DNA of 64,000 nucleotides from a virus, in IMG/VR virus record IMGVR_UViG_3300036845_000721, positions 1 through 64,000 of that record. One strand, written 5' to 3'. Positions 8,637 to 45,379 of the stretch are shown piece after piece. Each line of letters opens with the position of its first letter. Positions within the stretch are counted from its first letter, which is position 1. Position numbers and translations under genes: made by a program. Below the pieces are notes generated by a model. It was not told the DNA's origin. It saw nothing but the letters and a program-made list of their open reading frames with translations, and did not search any database.

Positions 8637-9501
8637 GCTGTGGATCCCGTCACCGCACTATTCGACCGGGCGCAGCGGCTACAACAAGATCGTGTTCCAT
8701 ACCACCCAGGGCGCGATGAAGATCCGGGACCTGGGGTCATGGTTCCAGAATCCGTCCGCGCAGTGCTCATCGCACCACGGGGCCGACGGCTACGAGCGCG
8801 GGGTATTCGGCGCGTACGTCTATGAGAACTACAGCGCCTGGACGCAGGGCAACGCGAACGGCTACTGCCTGTCAATTGAGCTGTGCGGCTACGCGGAATG
8901 GTCGCGCAGCGAATGGCTTGATAACCGGCCGGTCCTGGTCGACAACGCGGCCGAATGGCTGCGGTACATGGTCGACAAGTACGGCATTCCCTGGACCCTG
9001 CTCAGCGACTCCCAGGCGCAGAATGCAAGTGTTCGCGGAATCTGCCAGCACGTCAATCTCGGCTCATGGGGCAGCGGGCACTGGGACTGCGGCTCCGGCT
9101 TCCCGATCGACGTCATTGTCGACAAGGCCAAGAAATGGGGCGGCGGCGGCGGAACTGCACCACCCCAACCGGAACCGGTCTACCTGGAGGATGACATGCC
9201 GGTAATCCCGCCCAACGACGTAAACGACCGGCAGATCGCGATCTGCGTGGCCGGGCCGCACAAGGACCTCGGCTTCTGCGTCGACGCCGCGGTCCTGTCC
9301 GGGCCGGTGCAGCTCCGGTGCGCGTTCCACATCATCAACGGCGGCTGGAAAGTCATCGAGGTCACCATCAACCCGGGCAACATCCGCCCGGTCGTCTGCC
9401 CCCGGGACGGCAGCAACAACAAGATGTCGTGGGACGGCCTCAGCATCGACCGGAGGGACAACATGCCGGTCGACATCTGGCCGGTTCTCGTTCCCGGGTA
9501 G
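8623..9501 (+). CDS. Endolysin: N-acetylmuramoyl-L-alanine amidase (Amidase_2) with novel C-terminal domain
   Basis: 292 residues. Residues 20-165 form an Amidase_2/PGRP-type zinc amidase: NKIVFHTTQG places a likely zinc ligand at H26; CQHVNLG (H143) and GHWDCGSGFP (H153, D155, C156) supply the rest of the metal site. Such enzymes cut the bond between MurNAc and the stem peptide. A Gly/Pro linker (about 172-185) leads to a C-terminal domain of about 90 residues (RQIAICVAGPHKDLGFCVDA, then NGGWKVIEV, ending PVDIWPVL) that is clearly shared with the DUF1906 protein at 44462-45379. That domain probably binds the wall or stabilises the enzyme. ATG 8623 overlaps the preceding small gene. Confidence 0.88.
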   Translation: MAINELWIPSPHYSTGRSGYNKIVFHTTQGAMKIRDLGSWFQNPSAQCSSHHGADGYERGVFGAYVYENYSAWTQGNANGYCLSIELCGYAEWSRSEWLDNRPVLVDNAAEWLRYMVDKYGIPWTLLSDSQAQNASVRGICQHVNLGSWGSGHWDCGSGFPIDVIVDKAKKWGGGGGTAPPQPEPVYLEDDMPVIPPNDVNDRQIAICVAGPHKDLGFCVDAAVLSGPVQLRCAFHIINGGWKVIEVTINPGNIRPVVCPRDGSNNKMSWDGLSIDRRDNMPVDIWPVLVPG

Positions 9502-9537
9502 GGGTCAAACGGCGTTTCGTCGCTTACCATCGGGAAC

Positions 9538-9831
9538 GTGGGGCTGTTTCGCAGGAACGCCGCGCCCCCGGCGCCGTCCGGGCCGCCGCTGGGCGTGATC
9601 CTGCACTACCGCGGCCTGGCCATTCCGTGCGAGGTGCTGCGCGAGGAGGACCTGGACCGCCGCGGCCGGACCGCGTGGGCGGCATGGCCGATCGAGCCGG
9701 CGCCGCTGATGCCGGGCGAGGAACCTGAGCTCACCGCGACGATACTGCCGGACGGCTGCCTGCTGTTCTACGGCCCCCTGCTCCAGCGGGCGCCAGACAG
9801 TGACGAATGGTGGCTGCCCGACGTGTGGTAA
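9538..9831 (+). CDS. Conserved-looking small protein, function unknown
   Basis: 97 residues from GTG 9538. N-terminus GLFRRNAAPPAPSGPP, then a compact segment beginning GVILHYRGLAIPCEVLREED, with acidic and Trp-rich ending (DSDEWWLPDVW). It is the last gene before a strong terminator, so it closes the late structural/lysis transcript. No membrane segment or known motif. Confidence 0.7.
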   Translation: MGLFRRNAAPPAPSGPPLGVILHYRGLAIPCEVLREEDLDRRGRTAWAAWPIEPAPLMPGEEPELTATILPDGCLLFYGPLLQRAPDSDEWWLPDVW

Positions 9832-9866
9832 CCGGGACGGCTGTGACGTAACTCCTGTGACATGAC

Positions 9867-9908
9867 AGTAGCCCAGGGCCGCGATTGGTCCTGGGCTACT
9901 GCTTTTGC
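9867..9908 (+). terminator. Rho-independent terminator ending the late operon
   Basis: A perfect 11-bp stem AGTAGCCCAGG / CCTGGGCTACT (9867-9877 and 9890-9900) with a 12-nt loop is followed by GCTTTTGC. It lies 36 nt after the stop of the preceding gene and separates the endolysin group from the two secreted hydrolases. Confidence 0.85.
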
Positions 9909-10031
9909 ACCGAGAAGCCTGGAGCGGCCGTAGCCGTCCTGTTATCGTCGGTGAGGTTAGCGCCGAGCCCGGGAAACGGCCTGAGAATCCTTCCCCCGGG
10001 ACGGCGGCCGATCCTGAAGAAAAGCATACAG

Positions 10032-10862
10032 ATGAAAATGCGACATGCGCGACGGGCAATATTGTCCGTCCTCGGCGCGGTGGCACTGGTCTTCGCCTTC
10101 GCCTACCAGGCGGCAGCCCAGCCCCGGCCGGACGCCCTCCCGCCCGTCGTGGCCGCGGGGCTGCCGGCCGCCTACCAGCCGGCAGCCCTGCACCATGCCC
10201 CTTCCCAGCTCACCCGGCTCTACACCGTCCGTCACGGCGACACCCTGAGCAGGATCGCCGCCGCCCGGTGCGGGGTGGCAGCTGACTGGACCGGCATTTT
10301 CGCCGCCAGCCGCGCCGCGTACCGGACCGGGGCCGACCCGAACCTGATCTATCCCGGGCAGCTGCTGGTGCTGAGCTGCAGGCAGGCGACGATCCCGCGC
10401 CAGGCCAGGACCGTGACCAGGGCATACGTCACCGGACATCCGCGTTATGCCAGCTCAGGCCATATCGACGCCCGGGGCAGGATCTGGGGCGTCAGCTACG
10501 GCTACCCGAACTACTGCGGCGACGGCGACGGCGACGGCTGGGACGTGGCCTGCGGTACCAGGCATCCCGCCTCGCGCGGCGGCAGCGGGTACCGCGGATA
10601 CAGCCGGCCGGCCGGCGGCACCTATCACGGCTCGGGCTCGATGCAGCAGTGCATCATCGCGGCCGAGTCCGGCGGCAGCAGCCAGATAATGAACTCCACC
10701 GGGCACTACGGGCTCTACCAGTTCAGTGCCAGCACCTGGGCAGGCAGCGGCGGGAACCCGGCCGACTTCGGGCACGCCAGCGTGGCCGAGCAGAACCAGG
10801 TCTACTACAACGCGGTCGCGGCCCGGGGCTACCGCGACTGGGTGCCGTATGACCATTGTTAG
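10032..10862 (+). CDS. Secreted LysM plus Rpf-like transglycosylase
   Basis: 276 residues; the start at ATG 10032 exposes a Sec signal peptide (MKMRHARRAILSVLGAVALV, hydrophobic to AAAQP). A LysM peptidoglycan-binding module follows at about 60-115 (YTVRHGDTLSRIAAARCGV, ending PGQLLVLSC). Residues about 155-175 contain YCGDGDGDGWDVACG, like the calcium-binding loop of excalibur domains. The C-terminal 75 residues are a resuscitation-promoting-factor/transglycosylase fold with catalytic Glu212 in IIAAESGGSSQIMNSTGHYG and LYQFSASTW. It likely cleaves glycan strands outside the membrane. The 130-nt leader after the terminator shows no clear promoter hexamers. Confidence 0.85.
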   Translation: MKMRHARRAILSVLGAVALVFAFAYQAAAQPRPDALPPVVAAGLPAAYQPAALHHAPSQLTRLYTVRHGDTLSRIAAARCGVAADWTGIFAASRAAYRTGADPNLIYPGQLLVLSCRQATIPRQARTVTRAYVTGHPRYASSGHIDARGRIWGVSYGYPNYCGDGDGDGWDVACGTRHPASRGGSGYRGYSRPAGGTYHGSGSMQQCIIAAESGGSSQIMNSTGHYGLYQFSASTWAGSGGNPADFGHASVAEQNQVYYNAVAARGYRDWVPYDHC

Positions 10863-11460
10863 ACGGGCCGCAGCCACGGCGGCAGTACTCGCCTTCATCA
10901 CCGTCCTGGCGATCGCCGCGGCCCCCGCGCACGCTGCCACGTCAGCCCGCGGCGCTCCCGTCGCGGTCCAGAGCGCATACGGCGGGTCGCGGGCCGGGAA
11001 CGAGGCGCTGAACTGGGCCGAGCGGCACGCGGCCGGCCGCTGGTACTGCTTCGGCGGTACCGGGCCGTCGTGCTGGGACTGCTCCGGCCTGGTGATGACC
11101 GCGTTCCGGTACGGCGCCGGGATCGCCCTGCCCCGCACCACCTGGGCGATGCCCGGCAGCCCGCGGCTGCACCGGATCCCGCTGGCGGACGCGCGCCGCG
11201 GCGACATCCTGTTCTACGGGCCGGGGCACGTGGAGCTCGATACGGCCTGGCCGCACGCGTCGTTCGGCGCGCACGACGCGGGCAGCCTGATCGGCTGGAT
11301 CAGCTGGGGTCCGTGGTGGCACCCGACGGCCGCTTACCGAGTCTGGTTAGGAGTTGCGATCGTTTGCAGCCGGCACCCGGAGTTTTCCGCCCGTTTCACT
11401 CCAGACAGTCCGGAAAGGGTTACACTCCGGAATACGGTTGGCGAGCCAGTCGCGGGGTAG
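10849..11460 (+). CDS. Secreted NlpC/P60-family peptidase
   Basis: 203 residues from ATG 10849, overlapping the preceding gene by 14 nt. The N-terminus (TIVRRAAATAAVLAFITVLA to APAHA) is a Sec signal peptide. The NlpC/P60 core has catalytic Cys78 in CWDCSGLVMTAF and His127 in GPGHVELD, with RRGDILFYG between them. Such enzymes cut stem peptides (often D-gamma-Glu to diaminopimelate). It forms a two-gene unit with the Rpf-like enzyme, the same partnership as bacterial Rpf/Rip pairs. The last 40 residues after the P60 core are unlike it and may be disordered. Confidence 0.82.
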   Translation: MTIVRRAAATAAVLAFITVLAIAAAPAHAATSARGAPVAVQSAYGGSRAGNEALNWAERHAAGRWYCFGGTGPSCWDCSGLVMTAFRYGAGIALPRTTWAMPGSPRLHRIPLADARRGDILFYGPGHVELDTAWPHASFGAHDAGSLIGWISWGPWWHPTAAYRVWLGVAIVCSRHPEFSARFTPDSPERVTLRNTVGEPVAG

Positions 11461-11678
11461 CCGGCACCGGGAACGGACGCAGGCTCCCTGGCCCGGGCTC
11501 GGACCAGTCCGCGTGCACGCATGCTGACGGCATGACAGGGAGAGCGCGTCTTAGCGGAACGGTTACCCCGCGGCAGGGCGGCCCGCGCGCAGGCGGTGGA
11601 CCCATCACCACCTGTCAGCACGCGGGCCGCGCCAGCCGTCCAGGATCATGATCCTGCCATGGCCCGGGCGCGGGAACA
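11461..11678. other. Intergenic region between convergent operons
   Basis: No gene is supported on either strand. The main structure is the nested inverted repeat at 11580-11628. This is where the rightward hydrolase transcript and the long leftward transcript meet. Confidence 0.55.
11580..11628. terminator. Nested hairpin, possible bidirectional terminator
   Basis: Outer arms GGCCCGCG / CGCGGGCC (11580-11587, 11621-11628) enclose a second hairpin GGTGG-N8-CCACC (11595-11612). There is no T tract, which is common for GC-rich actinobacterial terminators, so function is inferred from position at a convergent junction. Confidence 0.4.
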
Positions 11679-12071
11679 TCACCCGGCCCGCGCGATGCGG
11701 GCGTCGCAGCCGTCGGTGTCCCGGCAGAGCCAGCCGCCCGGGTGATCCGGATCGGCCTGCGAGGCGACCGTCAGCAGCGGCAGATGGCGCTCCCCGCAGT
11801 ACCGGCAGCGGGCCGGGTCGGCGTTGTTGGCCTCCCGGACGGCAGCCATCAGGTCCGGCAGGTCTTCGGTCAGCAGCTGCCGGATGTTGGCGACCGCGGT
11901 CCGCAGCGGGAACTCCGGGCCGAGCACGTCCCGGCCGCCGAGCCGGATGACCAGCTCGCGCAGCCGGGCTTCCGGGTCGGCGACCTCGCCGCGCGGCACC
12001 TCGTCTGGCAGCAGCACCTGCAGTACCCGCTGGCGGCGGCCCTCGATCTTCTCCAGGTGAACGGTCTTCAC
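11679..12071 (-). CDS. Zinc-ribbon protein, function unknown
   Basis: 130 residues from GTG 12071, overlapping the upstream gene's stop. A helical N-terminal two-thirds is followed by CRYCGERHLPLL and then WLCRDTDGCDARIA, giving two cysteine pairs that could hold one zinc. Last gene of the leftward block, so its transcript ends in the 11.5-kb convergent region. DNA or RNA binding is possible but not shown. Confidence 0.75.
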   Translation of the reverse strand: MKTVHLEKIEGRRQRVLQVLLPDEVPRGEVADPEARLRELVIRLGGRDVLGPEFPLRTAVANIRQLLTEDLPDLMAAVREANNADPARCRYCGERHLPLLTVASQADPDHPGGWLCRDTDGCDARIARAG

Positions 12072-31209: not shown

Positions 31210-31263
31210 AGCATACGCTGCCGCCAGGGCAGACCCCGGAATGACGGCGGCCGGCGCTATGCT
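31210..31263. promoter_or_regulatory. Divergent promoter region
   Basis: Two TATGCT hexamers face apart: minus strand at 31210-31215 and plus strand at 31258-31263. They drive the leftward block and the rightward replication block. No clear -35 boxes. The 134-nt gap from 31165 to 31298 holds no gene. Confidence 0.5.
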
Positions 31264-31298
31264 GGCGGGCAAGGATCAGGAGACCGGAAGGAACCGTG

Positions 31299-31670
31299 AT
31301 GGGAACCCCGAAAACCGCCGCGCCGCCGCCCGTGCCGGTGATGCCGCCGCCCGGCAGCAGGCTGGAGCAGCTGATGGTCATGCTGCCGGACGCCGAGGCC
31401 GCGCTGGCGGAGGCGAAGCAGCAGGCCGACATGATCAAGGCCGGCATCGAGACCGAGGCCGCGCAGCTGGCCACCGCGGCGAACGGCGGCCAGATCCCGT
31501 ACGGCATCCGGATCGCCGGCGTGCTCGGGCTGCCCGCCCGGATCATGCGCTGGCACGGCAGCGACACCACCTTCGACTCTGCCCGGTTCGAGGCCGACCA
31601 CCCGGGCGTGCTGGCCGCCTACCGCAAGCCCAAGCGGCCCTACTGGAAGATGGACAAAGAGGGCGGCTGA
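31299..31670 (+). CDS. Small helical protein upstream of the nuclease
   Basis: 123 residues from ATG 31299 (GGAAGGA 7 nt upstream; GTG 31296 would add one residue). Pro-rich N-terminus, a helix LPDAEAALAEAKQQADMIKA, then GIRIAGVLGLPARIMRWHGS and YRKPKRPYWKMDKEGG. This small protein recurs before phage RecB-type nucleases in actinophages as judged by its look; a partner of the nuclease is possible. Confidence 0.7.
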   Translation: MGTPKTAAPPPVPVMPPPGSRLEQLMVMLPDAEAALAEAKQQADMIKAGIETEAAQLATAANGGQIPYGIRIAGVLGLPARIMRWHGSDTTFDSARFEADHPGVLAAYRKPKRPYWKMDKEGG

Positions 31671-31705
31671 CCCCGAATGTCAGGACCCGGCGGGAGACTG
31701 GCCTC

Positions 31706-32575
31706 ATGAGCAGCCCGATGCAGCAGTTCTTCGGCCACACCCCCGTCCCGCCCGGCGGCAGCTCGGCGTGGGCGGCCGGCTACGGCCGGGACCTGCGCGA
31801 CGTCATCGTCCGGCAGGCGCACCGCCAGCCGCGCAGCGTGCAGCGGCACCTCGGCCCGTCCGAGCTGGGCGCCGAGTGCGACCGGCAGGTCGTGTCCAAG
31901 ATGTGCGGCGAGCCGGTCACCAACCACGTCTCCGACCCGTGGCCGTCGGTCGTCGGCACCGCCGTGCACGCCTGGCTGGCGGAGAAGTTCGACAACGAGA
32001 ACCGGCTCAACGGCCGGGTCCGGTGGCTGACCGAGGAGAAGGTCATGCCGCACCCGCTGTACCCCGGCACCTCCGACGTCTACGACGTCGCCGAGCAGGC
32101 GGTGGTGGACTGGAAGATCCTCGGCCCCACGTCGCTGGCCAAGCTGCAGGCCGCGGACGGGCCGCCGCAACGGTACGTGATCCAGCTGCTGCTGTACGCC
32201 TGGGGCTGGCGCAACCACGGCTTCCCGGTCCGCCGGGTCGCCATCGCCGGGCTGCCGCGCACCGCCCCGAGCCTCGCCGAGATGTACGTCTGGGACCGGT
32301 TCCTCACCCCCGCCGACGACCAGGCGGTCATCGAGATCCTGCAGCTCACCGAGGCCCGCCGTGCCGTCGCCCGGATGGTGCTCGGCGGCCAGCTGCCGAT
32401 CAGCCAGGTCAAGCGGACACCCGGCGGCGACGAGTGCTATTTCTGCAACTTCTACCGGCCGGAAACCGCCCGGGACCCCAGCATCCCCGGCTGCCCCGGG
32501 CACAGCGCCCCCGCGTCCTGGCAGCCGCCCGCCATGCCAGCCGGGAATACCGGCGGCGCACTCGCTGTAGTCTGA
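31706..32575 (+). CDS. PD-(D/E)XK nuclease, RecB/Cas4-like
   Basis: 289 residues from ATG 31706 (GGGAGA upstream). LGPSELGAECDRQVV, then GTAVHAWLAEKF (His88), GTSDVYDV (Asp124), AVVDWK (Asp135, Lys137) and YVIQLLLYAWGW (the Q-x-x-x-Y motif) give a complete RecB/Cas4-type active site. Cys58 plus a C-terminal CYFC and PGCPGH suggest an iron-sulphur cluster as in Cas4/AddB. Likely a replication or recombination exonuclease. Operon with the small gene upstream and the replication genes downstream. Confidence 0.85.
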   Translation: MSSPMQQFFGHTPVPPGGSSAWAAGYGRDLRDVIVRQAHRQPRSVQRHLGPSELGAECDRQVVSKMCGEPVTNHVSDPWPSVVGTAVHAWLAEKFDNENRLNGRVRWLTEEKVMPHPLYPGTSDVYDVAEQAVVDWKILGPTSLAKLQAADGPPQRYVIQLLLYAWGWRNHGFPVRRVAIAGLPRTAPSLAEMYVWDRFLTPADDQAVIEILQLTEARRAVARMVLGGQLPISQVKRTPGGDECYFCNFYRPETARDPSIPGCPGHSAPASWQPPAMPAGNTGGALAVV

Positions 32576-32644: not shown

Positions 32645-33922
32645 ATGAGCTACCCGCCCGCACCCCCGCAGCAGGGCTACGGCCAGCCGCCCTACGACGG
32701 CGGCCAGCCCGGCTACCCGCCCGCGCCGCCCCAGGCACCGCAGCAGGGCTACGGCCAGCCCGGCTACCCCCAGCAGGGCTACGGCCAGCCCGCCTACCCC
32801 CAGCAGGGCTACCCCCAGCAGGGCTACCCGCCCCAGGCTCCCGGCTACCCGCAGCAGGGCTACGGCCAGCCCGCCTACCCGCCCCAGGCCCCGGCCGAGC
32901 CGGCTCCCCGCGGCACGCTGGCCGGCTTCTACGGCCAGCCCGCGGGCGGGTCCGGCAAGTCGATCAGCACGTTCCTGCACCGGCAGCAGGGCCAGTCCTT
33001 CACCGGCACCGTCGCCCGGGCCATCACTCCCGCCGATGTCCAGCCGCAGTACATCATGAACACCAGCCCGCCCGTGCTGCGGAAGTTCAACGACGGCAGC
33101 CCGATGATGAAGCTGGTCCTGCCGCTGCTCACCCAGCAGTCGGTCGACTTCCCCGACGGGCGCGCCTGCTGGCACGTGGCCGGGAGCAACCAGGCCGAGC
33201 TGGACCAGGCCATGTCCGAGGCCGGCGTCCCGGCAACCGACATCGGCGACGGCATGATGGTCCGGGTCCCGGAAGCCGGCGCGGTCATCACCATCACGTA
33301 CACGGGCGACCAGCCGATCCAGAACATGTCCGCGCGGAAGCTGCACCACGTCGTCTACCGGCGCCCGGCCGGCGCTGCCAACGGCCAGCCCCCCGCCGCC
33401 CAGCAGGCCCCGCCGCCCGCCCCGGCGCAGCAGCTGCCCGGCCAGCCGCCGGCTCAGCAGTGGCAGCAGCCGCCGGCTCAGCAGGGCGCGCCGCCGCAGC
33501 CGCCGGCCCAGCAATGGCAGCAGCCCCCGGCTCAGCAGGGACCGCCGCCGCAGGCCCCGGCCCAGCAGTGGCAGCAGCCGCCGGCCGTCCAGCAGCCCCC
33601 AGCCCAGCAGCAGGGCGTGCCGCCGCAGCCGCCGGCTCAGCAGTGGCAGCAGCCGGCCCAGCAGCAGGGCGCTCCGCCGCAGCCGCCGGCCCAGCAGTGG
33701 CAGCAGCCCCCGGCTCAGCAGGGACCGCCGCCGCAGGCTCCGGCCCAGGCGCCCGGCCAGCCGATGAGCGCGCCGCCCGGCACCGCGCCGGACACCGCCG
33801 CGAACATGGCCCGGCTGACCGGCCAGCCGATCCGGATCGATGACGGCACCGTCCTGCAGCCCGACGGATCGGCCGTCCGGCCCGACGGCACCGTCATCCC
33901 GCCGGCTGCCCCGGCCCAGTAA
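32645..33922 (+). CDS. Probable ssDNA-binding protein with low-complexity arms
   Basis: 425 residues from ATG 32645 (CAGGAGC upstream). Residues 1-85 are YPQQGYGQP-type repeats. Residues about 88-250 form the folded part: SFTGTVARAITPADVQPQYI, KFNDGSPMMKLVLPLL, ACWHVAG, GAVITITYTGDQP and ARKLHHVVY, matching an OB-like actinophage protein usually next to Cas4-like nuclease and helicase genes. Residues 255-390 are PPAQQWQQP repeats, then a short conserved tail (GTVLQPDGSAVRPDG). Probably binds single-stranded DNA; the arms may drive condensation. Binding is inferred. Confidence 0.7.
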   Translation: MSYPPAPPQQGYGQPPYDGGQPGYPPAPPQAPQQGYGQPGYPQQGYGQPAYPQQGYPQQGYPPQAPGYPQQGYGQPAYPPQAPAEPAPRGTLAGFYGQPAGGSGKSISTFLHRQQGQSFTGTVARAITPADVQPQYIMNTSPPVLRKFNDGSPMMKLVLPLLTQQSVDFPDGRACWHVAGSNQAELDQAMSEAGVPATDIGDGMMVRVPEAGAVITITYTGDQPIQNMSARKLHHVVYRRPAGAANGQPPAAQQAPPPAPAQQLPGQPPAQQWQQPPAQQGAPPQPPAQQWQQPPAQQGPPPQAPAQQWQQPPAVQQPPAQQQGVPPQPPAQQWQQPAQQQGAPPQPPAQQWQQPPAQQGPPPQAPAQAPGQPMSAPPGTAPDTAANMARLTGQPIRIDDGTVLQPDGSAVRPDGTVIPPAAPAQ

Positions 33923-34013
33923 CACCCGGCCCCCGCCCGCCCGGCCGGGCAGCGGAACCACCCCTCCGCGGCCCGGCCGGGCCAGCCGTCTCCCGCCAGG
34001 AGGAGATGCCCCC

Positions 34014-35798
34014 GTGACCGCCACGCTGACCGGCGAGCTGACCGCCGACGGCCGCCAGATCGTGCTGATCGGCAGCGGTGACGACCATGACCTGAACCAG
34101 CTGGCGACCCGGCTGGGCACCCTCACCCCGCTGCTGTCCGAGCCGGACGGCATGAAAGACAGCGGCATCCTGCTCGCCCCGGCCACCTGGCCGATGGTCG
34201 TCCAGCTCGGGCACAGCTTCCGCAACGGGCACGGCACCTTCACCCCCGGCGCCCGGCTCGCGGACTGGATGGCCGCCGAGGCCGCCCGCCGCGTCACCCC
34301 GCCGCCGCCGCTGCCGGACGGCATCGTGCCGCCCGGCGAGCGCGCCCGGGGCTACCAGGCCGAGGACGCCGCCGCGATCGCCGCGGCCGGCAAGGCGCTG
34401 GTGCTGCACGACCCCGGCCTCGGCAAGACGGTCATCTCCGTCCTCGCCCTCGAAGCCCGCCGCCGGGCCGGGCACGCCGTCTTCCCGCTGCTGGTCATCG
34501 CGCCGTCCTGGGAGGTCGCCGACGTCTGGTCCCGGCACATCCGGACCTGGGCGCCGCACTGGCCGGACCCCGTCTACTACCGGGGCGCCGCCCGCCGCGG
34601 CCTGCTCGCCGGGGCGCGCGGCAGCGACTGCGTGCTGCTCACCACCTACGCCACCGCCCGCCGCGACGCCGCGCTGGCATCCGGCCCGCTGTGCCTGCTG
34701 CGGCCCGCCACCGTCATCGCCGACGAGGCCCAGCTGATCGGCAACGACACCAGCCAGCAGTCGCAGGCGGTGCAGCGGCTCGCCCGGCACGCGGCCCAGG
34801 TGCTGCTGTGCTCCGGCACGCTGATCAAGCACTCCATGAGAAACGCCTACCCGGCGCTGAACGCGCTCGATTCGCGCAGCTTCTCCGCCTGGAAACGGGT
34901 CAGGCCGCGCTACATGGCCGTCCGGCCGGGCGACGGCGGCTACGACGAGATCATCACCGGGCTGCGGCCGGAGATGGAGGCCGAGTTCTTCGCCTGCCTG
35001 GAGGGCCAGCTGGTCCGCCGGGCCAAGGCTGACGTCGCCGGCCAGCTGCCGCCCAAGATCTACTCCGAGCGCTGCCCGGAGATCCCGCCGGAATGGCGCC
35101 GCGCCTACGACACGATGGAAGCCGACATGCTGGCCGAGCTGCCCGACGGCGGCGAGCTGCCGGTAATGTCCGTCCTCGCGCAGCTCACCCGGCTGTCCCA
35201 GCTCGCGTCGGCCGCCGCCGACGTCACCGTCACGTACGAGCCGGACCCGGCGACCGGGCTGCCCGTCGCGCACTACGCGGTCGCGCTGAAGCGGCCCAGC
35301 TGGAAGTCCGAGTCCGTGCTGGGCATCCTGGCCGAGCGGCCCGGCATGCCCGTCGCGGTGTTCTCCGAATCCCGGCAGCTGGCCATGCTCACCGGGGACT
35401 ACTGCACCGAGGCGGGGCTGCGCACCGGGTACGTCACCGGCATCGGCGGCGGCGTCACCATGGCAACCCGCAGGCAGGCCGTCGATGACTTCCAGGCCGG
35501 CCGGCTGGACGTCATCATCTGCACGGCCGGCGCCGGCGGCCTCGGCATCACCCTGACCGCGTCGAACTGCGGCGTCATGATGCAGCGGTCCTGGGAACTG
35601 GACCTGGCGCTGCAGCCCGAGGACCGGCTGCACCGCATCGGCGCCGAGATCCACCCCCACGTGGAGATCATCGACCTGATCGCGAAGAACACCGTCGACC
35701 AGCGGCGCCGCACCGTGCTGCGCGGCAAGGCCGGCCAGCTCGCCCAGTTCTGCCGCGACCCGCGCATCGTCGCCGAGCTGCTGGGCGGCCGGCGATGA
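34014..35798 (+). CDS. SNF2-type superfamily 2 helicase/translocase
   Basis: 594 residues from GTG 34014, chosen for CAGGAGGAGAT upstream; residues before it in the same frame look like linker. RecA-like motifs: I DPGLGKT (133-139), II DEAQ (237-240) in TVIADEAQLIG, III SGT (267-269) in LLCSGTLIK. The C-terminal half has GGLGITLTASNCGVMM and a motif VI EDRLHRIGA. SNF2 proteins translocate on dsDNA and do not fully separate strands; phage versions act in replication or recombination. ATGA overlap with the next gene. Confidence 0.86.
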   Translation: MTATLTGELTADGRQIVLIGSGDDHDLNQLATRLGTLTPLLSEPDGMKDSGILLAPATWPMVVQLGHSFRNGHGTFTPGARLADWMAAEAARRVTPPPPLPDGIVPPGERARGYQAEDAAAIAAAGKALVLHDPGLGKTVISVLALEARRRAGHAVFPLLVIAPSWEVADVWSRHIRTWAPHWPDPVYYRGAARRGLLAGARGSDCVLLTTYATARRDAALASGPLCLLRPATVIADEAQLIGNDTSQQSQAVQRLARHAAQVLLCSGTLIKHSMRNAYPALNALDSRSFSAWKRVRPRYMAVRPGDGGYDEIITGLRPEMEAEFFACLEGQLVRRAKADVAGQLPPKIYSERCPEIPPEWRRAYDTMEADMLAELPDGGELPVMSVLAQLTRLSQLASAAADVTVTYEPDPATGLPVAHYAVALKRPSWKSESVLGILAERPGMPVAVFSESRQLAMLTGDYCTEAGLRTGYVTGIGGGVTMATRRQAVDDFQAGRLDVIICTAGAGGLGITLTASNCGVMMQRSWELDLALQPEDRLHRIGAEIHPHVEIIDLIAKNTVDQRRRTVLRGKAGQLAQFCRDPRIVAELLGGRR

Positions 35799-37509: not shown

Positions 37510-37718
37510 GCTACGACCCGGATTTCGCGGTTTTCCCGCGCCGGCTGCCGTCACGGCCCCGGCTCCGGGCGCGGACACGGCTGCGGCACGCCGTGCGCAA
37601 CGCGCTCTGGGCCGCGAGCGGCCGGCTGTGCGGCTGGCACGGACCCGGCCGCCGGATCGCGTTCGAGGCCGGGCACCTGCTCGGCGAGACCGGCTGGAAG
37701 CTGAGGGACCCGTCATGA
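37506..37718 (+). CDS. Small basic protein, function unknown
   Basis: 70 residues from GTG 37506 (overlaps the upstream TGA). Arg-rich N-terminus (FPRRLPSRPRLRARTRLRHA), ending EAGHLLGETGWKLRDPS. Could be nucleic-acid-binding; unknown. Confidence 0.65.
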   Translation: MSYDPDFAVFPRRLPSRPRLRARTRLRHAVRNALWAASGRLCGWHGPGRRIAFEAGHLLGETGWKLRDPS

Positions 37719-38227
37719 TCACCGTCCTCGGCGGCGACCCCGGGAACACGGCCGGGTTCCTGCTGGCCGGCTGGCGTCCCGGCGAGCGGAAGGCCGCGTT
37801 CGCCCGCGCCTTCCAGTGCGACGGCGACTCCGCTGCGCTGCTGCTCGCCTGGATCTGCGACAGCGAGGCGGCTCTCACCCCGGGCATCACCGCCGTGCAG
37901 ATCGAGGCGTGGGACAGCCGCCCCCTCCCGGGCGGGCTGCACGGCGCCAGCCCGTCCGCCATCCAGGCCCAGATCAGCGACCTGGAGGCGGTCCTGGCCG
38001 GGCGCGGGGTGCCGTGCGTTATCCGGCCCGTCGCCGACGTCAAGACGTGGGCCGGCGACGAGCGGCTGAAGCGGGCAGGGCTGCTGGACACGGTCAGCCC
38101 GGCGCCGATGCGGCACGCGAAGTCGGCCGCCTGGCACTGCCTGTACTGCGCGGTGCACGACTGCGGCCTGCCGGATCCGCTGTCCCGGCGGGCTGGCGTA
38201 CAGGAGGCGCGGGATGTGCCAGGCTAG
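37715..38227 (+). CDS. RuvC-like Holliday junction resolvase
   Basis: 170 residues from ATG 37715 (ATGA overlap). ITVLGGDPGNTAGFLL gives the first acidic residue Asp8; AVQIEAWDSRPLPGG supplies the second (about Glu68). DVKTWAGDERLKRAGLL is typical of phage RuvC-like proteins. The closing motif, normally H-A-x-D-A, reads RHAKSAAWHCLY, so the final Asp is missing. Probable branched-DNA resolvase, or a degenerate version. Confidence 0.68.
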   Translation: MITVLGGDPGNTAGFLLAGWRPGERKAAFARAFQCDGDSAALLLAWICDSEAALTPGITAVQIEAWDSRPLPGGLHGASPSAIQAQISDLEAVLAGRGVPCVIRPVADVKTWAGDERLKRAGLLDTVSPAPMRHAKSAAWHCLYCAVHDCGLPDPLSRRAGVQEARDVPG

Positions 38228-38356: not shown

Positions 38357-39265
38357 ATGACCGCCGGCACGCCAGCAGGCAACGGCCAGGAGCTGTCCGG
38401 CCAGCATGTGCTCTACCGGCACTGGGCCAAAGACGGCACCCTCCTGTACGCCGGGCGGACCAACAATCCCCCGGCCCGGATGCGCAAGCACCGGTCAGAA
38501 GCTGACTGGTGGGCGTCCGTCTGCTGGACTACTTACGAGAAGTTCCCGTCCCTGGAAGCGCTCAAGGCCGGGGAGGCCTGGGCGATCGAGCACGAAAACC
38601 CGCAAGGGAACATTCAGGGACGGGTGTTCCAGGCTCCCCCGCGCAAGAGCCCGGAGCCGGGCACCGACCCTTATGTCCCGGTAAGAACCCGGGACCTGAG
38701 ACCAGACCTGGAGCTCATCCACCCGCTCTCGCGCGAGTTCTCCGTGTACGGAGGCGGCGACACCGTTCGGCGCGCCCGGGAATGGGCGCTGAACCGCCGG
38801 TACTACCTGCTGGACGGGCTGCCGGCCTGCGCTCACGCCTTCTACCTGATGAGGTGCCCGAACGCCGGCCGCTGCATCCCGCACGCAGACCACACCCAGG
38901 TGTGGGTCCCGGCCCCGGACTTCAGCAGGTTCGAGACCTACAGCGGTGCAGAGCCGCCGTTCATCCTCACGCAGCCGTACCGCGGCAGCCTGCCGGAGGG
39001 CGATGAAGACGACGCACCGGCAGCCGGGCTGCCCGGGCAGGCAATCAGGCTCCCGGCAGAAGTTACCGCTTACGCCGCCGCTCACGGGCTCGGTGCCGAG
39101 ACCTGGATCTCCGACGCCTGGTACTACCCGGAGCACTGCGTACCTGTCCGGCTCACGCCGCACGGAGGCGGCTACGTATCGTTCCCCCTGGAGACGGAGA
39201 CGCTGAGCCTGATGTGCGCCTGGCGGGACGAGTGGCCGGAAGCGGTACCGGAATGGCTCAAGTGA
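38357..39265 (+). CDS. GIY-YIG domain protein with unknown C-terminal domain
   Basis: 302 residues from ATG 38357. Residues 17-65 are a GIY-YIG nuclease domain: HVLYRHWAKDGTLLYAGRTN, then PPARMRKHRSEADWW, with the Arg of AGRT and a Glu downstream. Residues 100-200 include YLMRCPNAGRCIPHADH, a possible metal site. The C-terminal third is mixed alpha/beta with no known match. It sits between a RuvC-like gene and the polymerase fusion with a 1-nt overlap to the latter, as a freestanding homing-type or repair nuclease. Confidence 0.72.
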   Translation: MTAGTPAGNGQELSGQHVLYRHWAKDGTLLYAGRTNNPPARMRKHRSEADWWASVCWTTYEKFPSLEALKAGEAWAIEHENPQGNIQGRVFQAPPRKSPEPGTDPYVPVRTRDLRPDLELIHPLSREFSVYGGGDTVRRAREWALNRRYYLLDGLPACAHAFYLMRCPNAGRCIPHADHTQVWVPAPDFSRFETYSGAEPPFILTQPYRGSLPEGDEDDAPAAGLPGQAIRLPAEVTAYAAAHGLGAETWISDAWYYPEHCVPVRLTPHGGGYVSFPLETETLSLMCAWRDEWPEAVPEWLK

Positions 39266-42200
39266 TGGCTGACCTCATGCCGCCGCCCGTCGCCTGGCTG
39301 TCGGATATCCACCGGGCCTACCTGAACGAGCACGCCGTCACCGACGAGATCATCGCCACTGCCCGGATCCGGTCCGAGGGCGAGGTAATCGTTTTCCCGT
39401 GGCGGGACAGCGACCTGGTCACCGAGCAGCGCCGCGTGTGGCCCGAGCCCGAGGACGGGCTGCCCGAGGGCATGCCGAAATACTGGTGGGAGGCGGGGCA
39501 CTCCCCACACCTGTGGGCTGTCCGGCCCGTTACCGGGCTGCCCGCCAGTGCCCCGGTAATCATCGCCGAGGGCACCAAGCAGTCCCTGGCCGTCGCGTCC
39601 TGGGCGCCCCTGGAGTACGCCGTCTACGGGATGCCCGGATGCGATATCGGGCTGGTATCGATGCTGCAGCGGGCCGGGCTGGACCGGTTCGGCGGCCATC
39701 CGGTGGTCATCATGCTCGATGCCGACGCGGCCGAGAACCTGAACGTGTACGAGGCCGGCGAGAAACTGGCCGAGCTGCTGGATCTGGAAGGCGCCGCGGC
39801 GATCGCGTTCACCCGGCTGCCCGCTCAGGGCAAAGACGGGATCGATGACTTCCTGGGCCTGGTGGAACCGGAAGGCCGCCGGACCGAGGTGCTGGCCAAG
39901 CTGCTGTCCCGGGCCGAGCCGAAACCCGCCGGGCGCAGGCCGGTGCGGCGCCCGGTCAGCGAGGAGCCGCCGGACACGGGCGGGCTGCCCGCGGTCACCG
40001 TGAACAAGAACCGCCGTGAGGTCATCCACGAAATCCTGTGGCATCTCCAGCAGCGGTGGAACGGCACCGAGCTGTTCTGCTACGGAGGGGCGCTCACCCG
40101 GCTGCGCGAGACAGCGACAGAGCCGCTGGAGGAAGGCGCATTCCTGCGCTGGATGGTAGAGGCAGTCTGCCCGGTCAAGTACACCCCGGCCGGCCCGGCC
40201 AGCCCGGCCCGGTATGAGCCCACCTGGCCGGACCAGCAGACGGTCAAGGCCCTGCTGTCCTCCGGCGACGAGTTCGCCCCGCTAACCCGGGTCAGCCGCA
40301 CCCCGTTCATCCGGGCCGACGGCACCGTCTGCGCCAAGAACGGGTACGATCCTGCCAGCCAGACCATGCTGATCACCGGGAACTCCGGAATGGACCAGCT
40401 GGACATCCCGCACGAGCCGACACAGCAGCAGGCCATCACCGCCGCCGGGTACCTGCTGGACGAGTGGCTGGGCGACATGCCGTTCCGGGACCGGGCCAGC
40501 CGGGCCGGGGCGCTCGCCCTGGTGCTCACCCAGTTCATCCGCGGCCTGGTGCCGCTGGCCCCGCTCGCGGTCATCTCCGGACTGCAGCCGGGCGTCGGGA
40601 AGGGGCTGCTGGCCGACTGCGTGCAGCTGATGATCGCCGGAGAGGCCGCGCCGCCGCTGCCCTGGAGCCAGGTAGACGACGAGGAGAACCGAAAGCAGAT
40701 CACCAGTGCCTTCAAGGCCGGCGCTAACCTGGTCTGGTTCGATGAGGCGCACCAGATCGAGTCGCTGGCGCTGTCCCGGGCCATTACCTCGCTGACCTAC
40801 GCCGACCGGATCCTCGGCCTGACCAAGCAGGTCAGCTGGCCCAACCAGGTCACCTGGCTGGCTACCGGAAACCAGGTGGCGGCCAGCTCGGACATGGCCC
40901 GGCGGGCCTACTGGATCGAGCTGTACCCGGACGTGCCCGACCCGGAGAACCGGCCGGAATCCGATTTCAGCCACCCGGACCTGCGCGGCTGGACACTGGA
41001 TGCCCGGCCCCGGCTGATCACCGAAGCGCTGACCGTCATCCGAGCCTGGTACGCGGCCGGCCGGCCGCCGCATTCCCGCGGGCTCCTGATGGGATCGTTC
41101 GAGACCTGGGACAAGATGATGTCCGGCATCCTGGCCTACGCGGGGATAGACGGGTTCCTCGGCAACCTGGCCGCCAAACGGGCCGAGCGCGACGTCACCG
41201 GGGGGTACTGGGCCGAGCACGTTGCCTGGCTGCGCGCCCAGTTCGGCGCCGGGGAGTTCGCCGCCCAGGACGTGAAGATCCGGGCCGCCGGCTCCGGCGG
41301 GGCCTGGGATGCCCCGCCCCGGCTAGAGGACTTGAGCCGGGAAGGGTGGACCCGGGTGCTCGGCCAGGCGTACGCCCGGAATGCCGACCGGTGGTACGGG
41401 CAGTTCCGGCTGCACCGGTCCGGTGAGGGATTCGGGCACTCGGCACGCTGGACGATCCAGCAGCGGGGTGAAGAAACGGCACTCCCGGCTCCAAGAGACA
41501 ACACCCTGCCTGACCTGGGCGGGGGGAACAGGGGGAACGAATCCGGGCCGCCCGCGAACGGGTCGTTCGCTGCCCCAACCGCAAACGAAACCCTGCCTGA
41601 GCTGGGAGGATACGGTAATGGGGGAACAGAAATGCGTTCCCCTGCTACAGAAACCATGCCTGAGCTGGGCGGGCTTCCGGAAAACAGCGGTTTCGGGGGA
41701 ACAGGGGGAACTACTACCCCAGGTGTCCATGTGCGCGCGGGTGCGGGCGCACACGCGCGCGTTACGCGCGAGGGGGATTTCGTTCCCCTTGCTCCCCCTG
41801 TTCCCCCGAACCCCCCTGTTGCCGGAACCGGCCCGGTGCTCGGCTTCGACCTGGAAACCGGCGAGGCCGGGAAGCTGTTCACCTACACCCCGCACGATGA
41901 GACCGGCTACGTCCGGCTCGCCGGGATCACAGGCCCGTCCGGCGCGAACATGATCACCGGGGTACCGCAGCTGCTCGCGATGCTGGGCATGGCGCGGCGG
42001 GCGTACGGGCACAACATCCTCGGCTTCGACGGGCTGGCGCTGGCCCGCTGGGCGGGCGCGGACTGGGACTGGTTCTGCGACCGGGCGGTGGACACCGAGC
42101 TGATCGCCCGGCAGGCGTTCCCGCCCCGGTCCCGGGAGTCCGGCACGTCGGCCGACAAGCTGGGCCTGGACGCGGTGGCGGCGCTGCTCGGGCTGTCCGG

Positions 42201-43605
42201 CAAGACCGACGAGCTGTCCCGGCTGGCCGCTAAGCACGGCGGCTACGACATGATCCCGGCCGACGATCCGGAGTACCTGGCCTACCTCCGCGGCGACCTG
42301 GACGCCACCCGCGGCGTCGCCGGGCAGCTGCTGCGGCACTACGACGAGGACGCCTACCTGCCGCGCGAGCACGAACTGGCCCGGATCGCCGGGCACATGG
42401 CGCTGAACGGGCTGGCGGTCGACATCCCGCTGCTGACCCAGCGGTACGAGGCCGGCGAGCAGCGCAGGCAAGACGCCCTGCAGGCACTGCACGACGGCTG
42501 GGGCCTGCCGCTCGGCCGGGCCGTGATGCGCGGGCGCGGTCACGCCCGGCACGAGGAGACCGAAGGGTTCACCGCGCCGCTGGCCACCGCCGAAGGCCGC
42601 GCCTGGCTGGCCGCCCAGTGGGAGCGGTACCAGGTCCCGGACCCGCCGCTGACCGCGAAGGGACTGCTGGCCATCGGCAGCGACGAGCTCGCGGTCATCG
42701 GCCGCGACCCGGACTGCCCGCCGGACCTGCGGGCGATGCTGGCGCTGATGAACATCGTCACCACCACCCGGTCGGTCTACCAGACCGCGCGGGCGTGGCT
42801 GTGCCCGGACGGCAAGGTGCACCCGAAGATCAGCTTCCGGCAGGCGTCCGGCCGCTGGTCGGTCACCGACCCCGGGCTGACCGTGTTCGGCAAGCACGAG
42901 GGACGGCACGTGGAACGGGACATCTTCACCGCCAGCGAAGGCCGGGTGCTGATGAGTTTCGACCTGGAGCAGGTGGACATGCGGGCGATCGCCGGGCACA
43001 GCCAGGACCCGGCCTACATGGAGCTGTTCAGGCCCGGCCGCGACGCGCACTCCGAGATCGCCGCCCGGGTGTTCGGCGAGGCGCCCCGGGACGCGAAAGG
43101 CCGCCACCCGATGCGCCAGCCCGCGAAAGCCCGGGGCCACGGCTGGAACTACGGGATGGGTCCGGACCGGATGATCCGCGACGGGGTCGACCCGGACATG
43201 GCCTACGGGTTCGACAACGGGATGAAAGCCGCGTTCCCGGTGCTGTGCGACTGGCGCGAGGGCATCCGCGCCATCGCGGCGGCCGGCGGCATCCTGGACA
43301 ACGGGTTCGGCCGCCGGATGCGCGCCGACCCGCGGCACGCGCACACCGTCGCCCCGGCGCTGATGGGCCAAGGGGGAGCCCGCGACATCATGGGCCAGTG
43401 CCTGCTGCAGATCGACCCGGCGCTGCGCCCGTACATGGTGCTGCAGGTGCACGACGAGGTAATCCTGGACGTTCCGGAGGGCGATGCCGGGGAGGCCGCC
43501 GCCGAGGTCCGCCGGGCCATGACCTGGACCTGGCGGGACGTCCCGATCCTGTGCGACCAGGCCGGCCCCGGCCGGTCCTGGGGCGAGCTGTCGGGGGACA
43601 AGTGA
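39265..43605 (+). CDS. TOPRIM / AAA+ helicase / family A DNA polymerase fusion
   Basis: 1446 residues in one uninterrupted frame from ATG 39265. (i) Residues about 95-195: TOPRIM/DUF3854-like part, VIIAEGTKQSLAV and HPVVIMLDADAAENL. (ii) About 395-630: P-loop ATPase, Walker A GLQPGVGKG (439-447), Walker B LVWFDEAH (D493, E494), then ATGNQ sensor. (iii) 736-855: Gly/Pro/Thr linker with three LP(D/E)LGG-type repeats. (iv) From 862: 3'-5' exonuclease (D862, E864; Y1007, D1011). (v) Polymerase: motif A D1233 in SFDLEQVDMRAIAG, motif B K1288 to Y1296, motif C VHDE (H1396-E1398). A primase-helicase region and the replicative polymerase in one chain; no separate primase gene is visible. Confidence 0.88.
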   Translation: MADLMPPPVAWLSDIHRAYLNEHAVTDEIIATARIRSEGEVIVFPWRDSDLVTEQRRVWPEPEDGLPEGMPKYWWEAGHSPHLWAVRPVTGLPASAPVIIAEGTKQSLAVASWAPLEYAVYGMPGCDIGLVSMLQRAGLDRFGGHPVVIMLDADAAENLNVYEAGEKLAELLDLEGAAAIAFTRLPAQGKDGIDDFLGLVEPEGRRTEVLAKLLSRAEPKPAGRRPVRRPVSEEPPDTGGLPAVTVNKNRREVIHEILWHLQQRWNGTELFCYGGALTRLRETATEPLEEGAFLRWMVEAVCPVKYTPAGPASPARYEPTWPDQQTVKALLSSGDEFAPLTRVSRTPFIRADGTVCAKNGYDPASQTMLITGNSGMDQLDIPHEPTQQQAITAAGYLLDEWLGDMPFRDRASRAGALALVLTQFIRGLVPLAPLAVISGLQPGVGKGLLADCVQLMIAGEAAPPLPWSQVDDEENRKQITSAFKAGANLVWFDEAHQIESLALSRAITSLTYADRILGLTKQVSWPNQVTWLATGNQVAASSDMARRAYWIELYPDVPDPENRPESDFSHPDLRGWTLDARPRLITEALTVIRAWYAAGRPPHSRGLLMGSFETWDKMMSGILAYAGIDGFLGNLAAKRAERDVTGGYWAEHVAWLRAQFGAGEFAAQDVKIRAAGSGGAWDAPPRLEDLSREGWTRVLGQAYARNADRWYGQFRLHRSGEGFGHSARWTIQQRGEETALPAPRDNTLPDLGGGNRGNESGPPANGSFAAPTANETLPELGGYGNGGTEMRSPATETMPELGGLPENSGFGGTGGTTTPGVHVRAGAGAHARVTREGDFVPLAPPVPPNPPVAGTGPVLGFDLETGEAGKLFTYTPHDETGYVRLAGITGPSGANMITGVPQLLAMLGMARRAYGHNILGFDGLALARWAGADWDWFCDRAVDTELIARQAFPPRSRESGTSADKLGLDAVAALLGLSGKTDELSRLAAKHGGYDMIPADDPEYLAYLRGDLDATRGVAGQLLRHYDEDAYLPREHELARIAGHMALNGLAVDIPLLTQRYEAGEQRRQDALQALHDGWGLPLGRAVMRGRGHARHEETEGFTAPLATAEGRAWLAAQWERYQVPDPPLTAKGLLAIGSDELAVIGRDPDCPPDLRAMLALMNIVTTTRSVYQTARAWLCPDGKVHPKISFRQASGRWSVTDPGLTVFGKHEGRHVERDIFTASEGRVLMSFDLEQVDMRAIAGHSQDPAYMELFRPGRDAHSEIAARVFGEAPRDAKGRHPMRQPAKARGHGWNYGMGPDRMIRDGVDPDMAYGFDNGMKAAFPVLCDWREGIRAIAAAGGILDNGFGRRMRADPRHAHTVAPALMGQGGARDIMGQCLLQIDPALRPYMVLQVHDEVILDVPEGDAGEAAAEVRRAMTWTWRDVPILCDQAGPGRSWGELSGDK
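41515..41820 (+). repeat. G-run/C-run repeats inside the polymerase linker
   Basis: GGGGGAACA-type units occur at about 41515-41538, 41617-41640 and 41694-41716, with the inverted form (GTTCCCC, TGTTCCCCC) at 41636 and 41788-41815. They encode the low-complexity hinge. The stretch also uses more A-rich codons than its neighbours. It may be only codon-level repetition, or an embedded binding array. Confidence 0.5.
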
Positions 43606-44461: not shown

Positions 44462-45379
44462 ATGGCACTGGTAGCGCGCGGTTACGACTGCTCGTGGGAT
44501 CCTCCCGACCAGCAGTGCATGAAGAACGCCGGGTACGCGTTCATGGTCCGGTACGCGTCACGAGACCCGTCGCAGGCAGGCAAGAACCTGACCCGGGCCG
44601 AGCTCGATTCAGCGCTGGCGAAGGGCCTCGGGGTCTGCGTGGTCTGGCAGGATTCCAAGTCGCAGATGAAGGGCGGCTACTCGGCCGGCACCTCGCACGC
44701 CGGCAGCGCGGACTCATTCGTGCGGGGCCTGGGCCTGGGCGGTATCCCGGTTTACTTCGCGTGCGACTTCGATCCCGTCTCGTCCGACTGGGCCGCGGTC
44801 GACGGCTACTGCGACGGGGTGAAAGCGGTGCTCGGGAAGTCCCGGGCCGGGGGATACGGCGGTTACAGCTTCATCAAGCGCGAGCTGGACGCGGGCCGGA
44901 TCACCTGGGCCTGGCAAACCTACGCTTGGAGCGGCAGCCCGACGACGTGGGACGCCCGCGCCCAGATGCGCCAGGTGAAAAACGATTACGCCCGCTGTGA
45001 CGGCTACATCGATGACGACGAGGCGCACGCCGCCGACTACGGCCAGTGGCCCCGCCCGGCCGCCGCCGCCCCGCAGCAGGCCGAGGCACTGGACCCGGTG
45101 TGCCTGCCGCCCCGGGCCGTGTCAGGCCGGCAGGTCTCCGTCTGCCTGAACGGCCCGCACCGCGACTTCGGGATCTGCGTGGACGCCTCCGTGCTGCAGG
45201 GCTCGGTGCACATCCGGGCCGCGCTGCACCTCATCAGCGGCGGCTGGCACGTCATCCAGGTCTACGCCGACCCCGGGCACGACCGGGTGGTGGTCAGCCC
45301 GCCGTCGCCCTACGACGGCGCCAGCCTGCACCGGCAGGACGACCAGCCGGTGGACGTCTGGCCGGTGTTCACGGCGTAA
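44462..45379 (+). CDS. Second lysin: DUF1906 glycoside-hydrolase-like protein with shared C-terminal domain
   Basis: 305 residues from ATG 44462. Residues 5-200 are a DUF1906 (Rv2525c-like) TIM-barrel: ARGYDCSWDPPDQQCMKNAG, YAFMVRYASRDPSQ, GLGVCVVWQDSKSQ, IPVYFACDFDPVSSDWAAVD, TWAWQTYAWSG. After a Pro/Ala linker the last 90 residues (RQVSVCLNGPHRDFGICVDA, SGGWHVIQV, QPVDVWPVF) match the C-terminal domain of the amidase at 8623-9501. It probably degrades or binds peptidoglycan. Odd location: end of the replication block, 2 nt from a convergent gene. Only a weak ribosome site (GGCTGGGGCC). Confidence 0.8.
   Translation: MALVARGYDCSWDPPDQQCMKNAGYAFMVRYASRDPSQAGKNLTRAELDSALAKGLGVCVVWQDSKSQMKGGYSAGTSHAGSADSFVRGLGLGGIPVYFACDFDPVSSDWAAVDGYCDGVKAVLGKSRAGGYGGYSFIKRELDAGRITWAWQTYAWSGSPTTWDARAQMRQVKNDYARCDGYIDDDEAHAADYGQWPRPAAAAPQQAEALDPVCLPPRAVSGRQVSVCLNGPHRDFGICVDASVLQGSVHIRAALHLISGGWHVIQVYADPGHDRVVVSPPSPYDGASLHRQDDQPVDVWPVFTA

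Follow-up and report, generated by a model that had tools for sequence, protein, structure and literature searches.

A phage reading frame that joins a TOPRIM primase-like core, an SF3-like ATPase and a proofreading-type family A DNA polymerase

Proteins that combine several activities of the replication fork in one chain are already known in other builds. GP55 of lactococcal phage 1706 unites helicase, priming, synthesis and proofreading functions, and its de novo DNA synthesis has been shown biochemically (PMC12205980). The 1606-residue PolA polyprotein of Pyrovirus/OS3173 consists of a DUF927 P-loop helicase-like part, an exonuclease and a family A polymerase (PMC7689252), and the apicoplast PREX precursor holds a primase, a helicase, an exonuclease and a family A polymerase (PMC6523293, PMC7689252). 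Fusions of DnaG with D5 helicases have also been described (PMC2579912). In the papers we searched, we did not find a description of a DnaG-type core joined to an SF3-like ring and a proofreading family A polymerase; a deposited example is Pas55 of the Actinoplanes phage phiAsp2 (NC_005885, 1415 aa), whose annotation reads putative DNA polymerase only.

The locus studied here lies in a 64,000-nucleotide stretch of DNA (the window), which is part of a 131,444-base virus record (IMG/VR IMGVR_UViG_3300036845_000721); the host of the virus is probably a soil actinobacterium. The open reading frame runs on the plus strand from an ATG at 39265 to a stop codon ending at 43605 and encodes 1446 residues with no internal stops, exactly the single uninterrupted frame that an earlier sequence-only reading had proposed, and 36 relatives share the join. 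Its start codon shares one base with the stop codon of the preceding gene (TGATG), although translation might also begin at a GTG that lies 17 codons before it. The order of the modules is TOPRIM primase core, SF3-like helicase, linker and 3'-5' exonuclease/family A polymerase. Pfam recognizes DNA_pol_A at residues 1181-1441 (4e-32) and the TOPRIM-like domain DUF3854 at residues 95-197 (8e-5), while in PHROGs the C-terminus corresponds to phrog_17 (DNA polymerase), the N-terminus to phrog_16213 (DNA primase) and the middle is covered by phrog_10537, phrog_29234 and phrog_19930. These matches, together with the fold comparisons and motif residues set out below, bear out the earlier description of a TOPRIM part, a P-loop/AAA+ helicase, a repetitive linker and an exonuclease-polymerase module with intact motifs A, B and C. 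The GC content at third codon positions ranges from 0.89 to 0.99 across the enzyme parts, compared with 0.64-0.73 in sequence windows that contain the linker.

The AlphaFold2 (AF2) fold and the DUF3854 match delimit a DnaG/T7 gp4-type primase core, lacking the zinc-binding domain, at residues 13-235 (39301..39969, plus strand). The model of residues 1-241, built from 47 sequences, has a pLDDT of 92.8 and a pTM of 0.88. A fold search of the PDB with this model gave five significant matches only, all of them T7 gp4 or bacterial DnaG primases; the best matches to the basal domain and TOPRIM were 6n9x and 2au3 (TM 0.56-0.57 on the query, probability 1.00). Since primases are the only significant folds returned, the N-terminal part is best described as a DnaG/gp4-type core, and a TOPRIM of the OLD nuclease or topoisomerase type can be ruled out. 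The TOPRIM glutamate E102 in the motif EGTKQ (39568..39570), the DxD motif D152-A-D154 (39718..39726) and the third acidic pair D194 and D195 (39844..39849), all on the plus strand, are invariant in alignments of 48 and 47 sequences and are present in 52 of 52 hits, where, as in the counts of 48 and 75 hits given below, some loci duplicate one contig. Sequence searches of the PDB were less informative: the primase-helicase profile found no match, and the primase profile found weak TOPRIM matches only (E = 0.3-0.5), with the glutamate and the DxD motif in register. We interpret the N-terminal domain as a TOPRIM primase core, and predict from its sequence and model that it synthesizes RNA primers.

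Three further observations bear on this assignment. The EGxxD motif of DnaG reads EGTKQ in the window protein. The chain contains no zinc-binding domain, and PF01807 has no match anywhere in the 131-kb record. In the DnaG and gp4 primases the zinc-binding domain serves template-directed priming. Its absence need not be fatal, because in NrS-1 PrimPol a loop is reportedly used in place of the zinc finger (PMC8718748). The function of DUF3854 has been described as unknown, and the domain also occurs in a Rep protein of a plasmid thought to replicate by a primer-free rolling-circle mechanism (PMC10079941); the literature that we searched on the domain yielded no biochemical test of it.

The helicase module occupies residues 246-735 (40000..41469, plus strand), including an N-terminal accessory part and a conserved C-terminal end. 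Its Walker A motif GLQPGVGK (40579..40602) contains K446, kept in 48 of 48 hits, and its Walker B motif LVWFDE (40729..40746) contains D493 (48 of 48) and E494 (46 of 48). By analogy with SF3 helicases, N536 is a candidate motif C-like sensor asparagine and R546/R547 a candidate arginine finger (40870..40905, plus strand as for both Walker motifs); N536 and R547 are kept in all 47 readable hits. The conservation of the catalytic residues of both the TOPRIM and the ATPase across the relatives indicates that this half of the protein is not degenerate, and the sequence-only reading had named non-catalytic homologs as the finding that would count against it. The AF2 model of residues 1-739 (26 aligned sequences) has a mean pLDDT of 87.6, and its best PDB folds are the C-terminal region of the NrS-1 polymerase, SaPI5 PriRep1, pox D5/E5 and the ASFV PrimPol; the Aquifex DnaG is also among the matches. 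The ATPase is a conserved module (62% mean column identity in an alignment of six), with no match in Pfam or NCBIfam, D5_N, DUF5906 and primase_Cterm included; DnaB_C, the domain of RecA-like DnaB/SF4 helicases, has no match either. Because a profile comparison (hhalign) of the window ATPase with the D5 ATPases of relatives was not significant (probability 0.95%), the SF3 assignment derives from the fold. A hexameric form and 3'-5' unwinding are predicted from this modelled likeness.

In other replicons the same ATPase is found behind primase domains of different kinds. At six loci (L080, L088, L091, L092, L094 and L104) it follows an AEP Prim-Pol domain, and at L110 a RepB primase domain precedes it. 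Iyer and colleagues have used such in-place replacement as an argument for inferring equal function (PMC2579912), and the presence of AEP and RepB domains in the place of the TOPRIM part thus supports its reading as a primase. At L091, a family A polymerase from Ktedonobacter, encoded at 9447-11813 beside the Prim-Pol/ATPase gene, has a docking domain of the TubC_N type close to the N-terminal end.

Between the helicase and the exonuclease lies a low-complexity linker of about 120 residues (residues ~736-856; 41470..41832, plus strand), with three copies of a PELGG-like motif. The corresponding linkers of the relatives are 84-247 residues long and unconserved, and the PELGG-like repeat, present three times in the window protein, occurs once in the relative L005, so there is no conserved linker motif. 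A frameshift or intein boundary in the linker, which had been anticipated as a possible objection to the fusion, is ruled out, with 36 relatives in frame across linkers of their own. The one intein-like insert that we observed (Hom_end, LAGLIDADG_3) lies elsewhere, directly after the Walker A lysine of the fused relative L012 (201-5765).

The exonuclease and polymerase together span residues ~857-1443. Motifs A, B and C and the residues of exo motifs I-III are present, and nearly all of 75 hits retain the motif residues. The 3'-5' exonuclease (residues 857-1015; 41833..42309) contains D862, E864, D922, Y1007 and D1011. The palm and fingers of the family A polymerase (residues 1180-1443; 42802..43593) were identified from PF00476 (4e-32) and from alignments with the Taq, Klenow and Bst enzymes. 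Motif A is DLEQVDMR (42961..42984), with D1233 and, at the position of E. coli Glu710, D1238; motif B is RQPAKARGHGWNYG (43114..43155), with R1284, K1288, Y1296 and, at the position of E. coli Phe762, H1292; motif C is VHDE (D1397; 43447..43458). All of these features lie on the plus strand.

In PolA enzymes, positions 710 and 762 are known to govern which sugars and nucleotides are selected. Asp occupies 710 and His occupies 762 in each of the clade's 67 polymerases, whether fused or split. In the first alignment the invariance of His762 was due in part to the search pattern (GHGWNYGM was a query word), a bias that the set recruited through the ATPase and the annotated phage records remove. 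Nine polymerases outside the clade have Glu at 710 and Phe or Tyr at 762. We found no description of a histidine at 762 in a literature search aimed at it, which is weak evidence of absence. A published PolA survey retained only Phe, Leu or Tyr at this position (PMC9069017), so its residue filter would have excluded the class of PolA enzymes marked by the Asp710/His762 pocket. It is conceivable, although to our minds doubtful, that the clade forms a functionally distinct class, in which this pocket goes together with a tethered DnaG-type primase that lacks zinc and with SF3 rings that can be exchanged, and which has been fused repeatedly and independently into self-priming one-chain replicases.

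Comparison with the known systems places the protein closest to phiAsp2 Pas55, a single annotated CDS in which all three modules are arranged as in the window protein. Pas55 is 39.6% identical over 89% of the query, is the single near full-length tblastn match among phage records and the top match among predicted viral structures; its polymerase part, however, belongs to a different clade from that of the window. The Streptomyces phage Mischief19 has homologous TOPRIM and polymerase parts in two adjoining genes (DNA primase, gene 58; DNA polymerase I, gene 57), but carries a helicase part of D5_N/DUF5906 type, unlike that of the window. The sequence-only reading had named T7 gp4 as an existing bifunctional primase-helicase; a likeness to it holds for the fold of the primase core, whereas the helicase resembles SF3/D5 enzymes, and the window protein has neither the DnaB/SF4 helicase nor the zinc domain of gp4. 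PREX is eukaryotic and proteolytically processed, and its helicase is of the Twinkle/T7 type. GP55 of phage 1706 pairs an AEP primase with a family B polymerase, where the window protein has a TOPRIM and a family A enzyme. NrS-1 PrimPol, SaPI5 PriRep1 and pox D5/E5 (PDB 6k9e, 7ola/7pds, 8wh3) share the fold of the helicase module but carry another primase domain and have no separate proofreading polymerase in the chain. In the mobile elements encoding TV-Pol and CcPol-MP, a family A-type polymerase is tied to a D5/SF3 helicase, but priming is done, or predicted to be done, by the polymerase itself, and there is no TOPRIM part (PMC2579912, PMC10061031). The Pyrovirus 3173 protein, from thermophilic viruses, is likewise fused or split among its relatives, and no TOPRIM has been reported in it (PMC7689252).

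Relatives were collected by tblastn against phage records, scans of IMG/VR and GTDB, and profile searches over the fetched loci. The TOPRIM, this ATPase and the polymerase occur in one frame in 37 ORFs including the window's (35 clusters at 90% identity), 31 of which are complete at both ends and measure 1299-1548 residues. The closest, with 60% identity or slightly less, are L005 and L042, on contigs of 108.8 kb and 122.4 kb. In 14 further ORFs the TOPRIM and the polymerase are joined in one frame with a D5/P4-type SF3 ATPase (D5_N/DUF5906), and there are three additional D5-polymerase ORFs, two of which end at a contig edge. One of the D5-type fusions, on the 98,815-bp contig L036, is annotated as a phage/plasmid primase of the P4 family, and this contig is probably a phage-plasmid. 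The primase-helicase and the polymerase are separate adjoining genes at L004 (Mischief19), L011, L017, L028 and L030, and at L086 the two genes overlap by 4 bases; in Streptomyces phages the split versions are a "DNA primase" and an adjoining "DNA polymerase I". The earlier reading had noted that phages normally encode these functions separately; the fusion is real but no one-off, being found in phiAsp2 and on some fifty contigs.

In a tree of 33 polymerase domains, the monophyly of all fused ORFs is rejected (AU p = 1.6e-15), and it is also rejected when only those fused ORFs that carry this ATPase are considered (p = 2.6e-5). L007, which has this ATPase, is sister to L027, which has a D5 ATPase, and the fused L035 is sister to the split L023. 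These sister pairs and the rejected monophyly indicate that the genes were fused or split, and the helicase part exchanged, on more than one occasion, on a tree that reads the same for gain as for loss of the fusion. With such fused and split pairs, and differing helicases on close polymerases, the reasons for which replication enzymes fuse become directly testable.

We consider it probable that the protein is a single-chain phage replicase in which a primase core, an SF3-like ring helicase and a proofreading family A polymerase are coupled. The identity and order of the modules, their conserved catalytic residues, the recurrent fusion and the exchange with known primase domains, as read from sequences and predicted folds, carry this interpretation; what we infer is that the ring assembles, that it primes, that primers are passed on along the linker and that synthesis is coupled. 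The ATPase would assemble into a hexameric ring and open the fork, and the primase cores borne on the ring would lay RNA primers on the exposed strand. Polymerases on the long flexible linkers would then pick up these primers and elongate them while proofreading, priming and extension being coupled by high local concentration and not by tight docking. Priming without a zinc domain is the weakest step: as this domain is absent from the chain, another element must recognize the template, perhaps the N-terminal part of the ring, a neighbouring subunit or a separate protein. SSB, ligase and primer removal would probably be provided by the host or by unrecognized phage proteins. Should the proposal be right, one polypeptide would prime, open and copy the phage fork with proofreading. 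The phrase "one-protein replisome", used in the earlier reading, goes further than these observations, and one-chain precedents of other builds exist. We found no report of a bench test of any such fused protein in the literature.

Several other explanations have to be weighed against this coupled replicase. The drop in third-position GC around the linker could point to two genes joined by assembly or annotation error, but the same join in the isolate phiAsp2 and in 35 further ORFs with different linkers refutes an artefact, the probability of which we regard as negligible. The chain might instead be a polyprotein, or give dual products, with cleavage in the linker or an internal start releasing a primase-helicase and a polymerase, as reported for apicoplast PREX. 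The linker is long, of low complexity and unconserved, the PREX precursor is processed (PMC7689252) and the split-gene relatives evidently function as two proteins, all in keeping with such separation. On the other side, the sole in-frame internal start is weak (a GTG at residue 823 with a 4-base Shine-Dalgarno match), the compared linkers have no conserved cleavage motif, and the fused form recurs in separate lineages, which suggests that the tether itself matters; we hold processing to be unlikely.

Recurrence also bears on the proposal that the fusion is functional but uncoupled, a neutral by-product of gene order that leaves the running of the fork unaffected. Split versions with adjoining genes are evidently viable, as this would predict, but the fused form appears at several separate places in the polymerase tree and all 28 rows of the phiAsp2-like clade retain it, and to this proposal, too, we assign a low probability. 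It is quite improbable, finally, that the protein is a helicase-polymerase with a non-priming TOPRIM, which would bind metal or DNA for origin melting or loading while primers came from the host DnaG or from the polymerase. The missing zinc domain, the replacement of EGxxD by EGTKQ and the precedent of priming by the family A polymerase CcPol with its partner MP in SCCmec elements (PMC10061031) are in its favour; the retention of every TOPRIM acidic residue, the return of primases without OLD nucleases or topoisomerases in the fold search, and the AEP and RepB primase domains that occupy its place elsewhere argue for the priming core of the coupled replicase.

The surroundings of the gene speak to its self-sufficiency. 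An SNF2-type helicase (33840..35798; PF00176, 2.7e-17), which three close relatives also have in their records, is a point against full self-sufficiency, as it could share the work. A Cas4/RecB-like exonuclease (31241..32575; phrog_1674 exonuclease, 2.4e-56) and, directly upstream of the replicase, a GIY-YIG endonuclease (38357..39265; phrog_16880, 1.5e-16; PF01541, 2.7e-4) are, like the SNF2 gene, on the plus strand. The SNF2 helicase and two nucleases expected as neighbours are thus present, but no SSB-like protein such as the one listed with them turned up: Pfam SSB matches nothing in the 131-kb record or in the other tested records (five in all, possibly incomplete), and Pol III alpha is likewise absent from five tested, possibly incomplete records. 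In 11 records including the 131-kb record, some possibly incomplete, neither a DnaB-type helicase nor a zinc ribbon of DnaG was detected. Upstream of the replicase, a conserved ORF at 37628-38227 with a GGDPGNTAG motif probably encodes a RuvC-like nuclease, with an internal ATG near 37712 as its likely start. Just downstream, at 44462-45379, lies an Rv2525c-like glycoside hydrolase that is classed as an endolysin in PHROGs.
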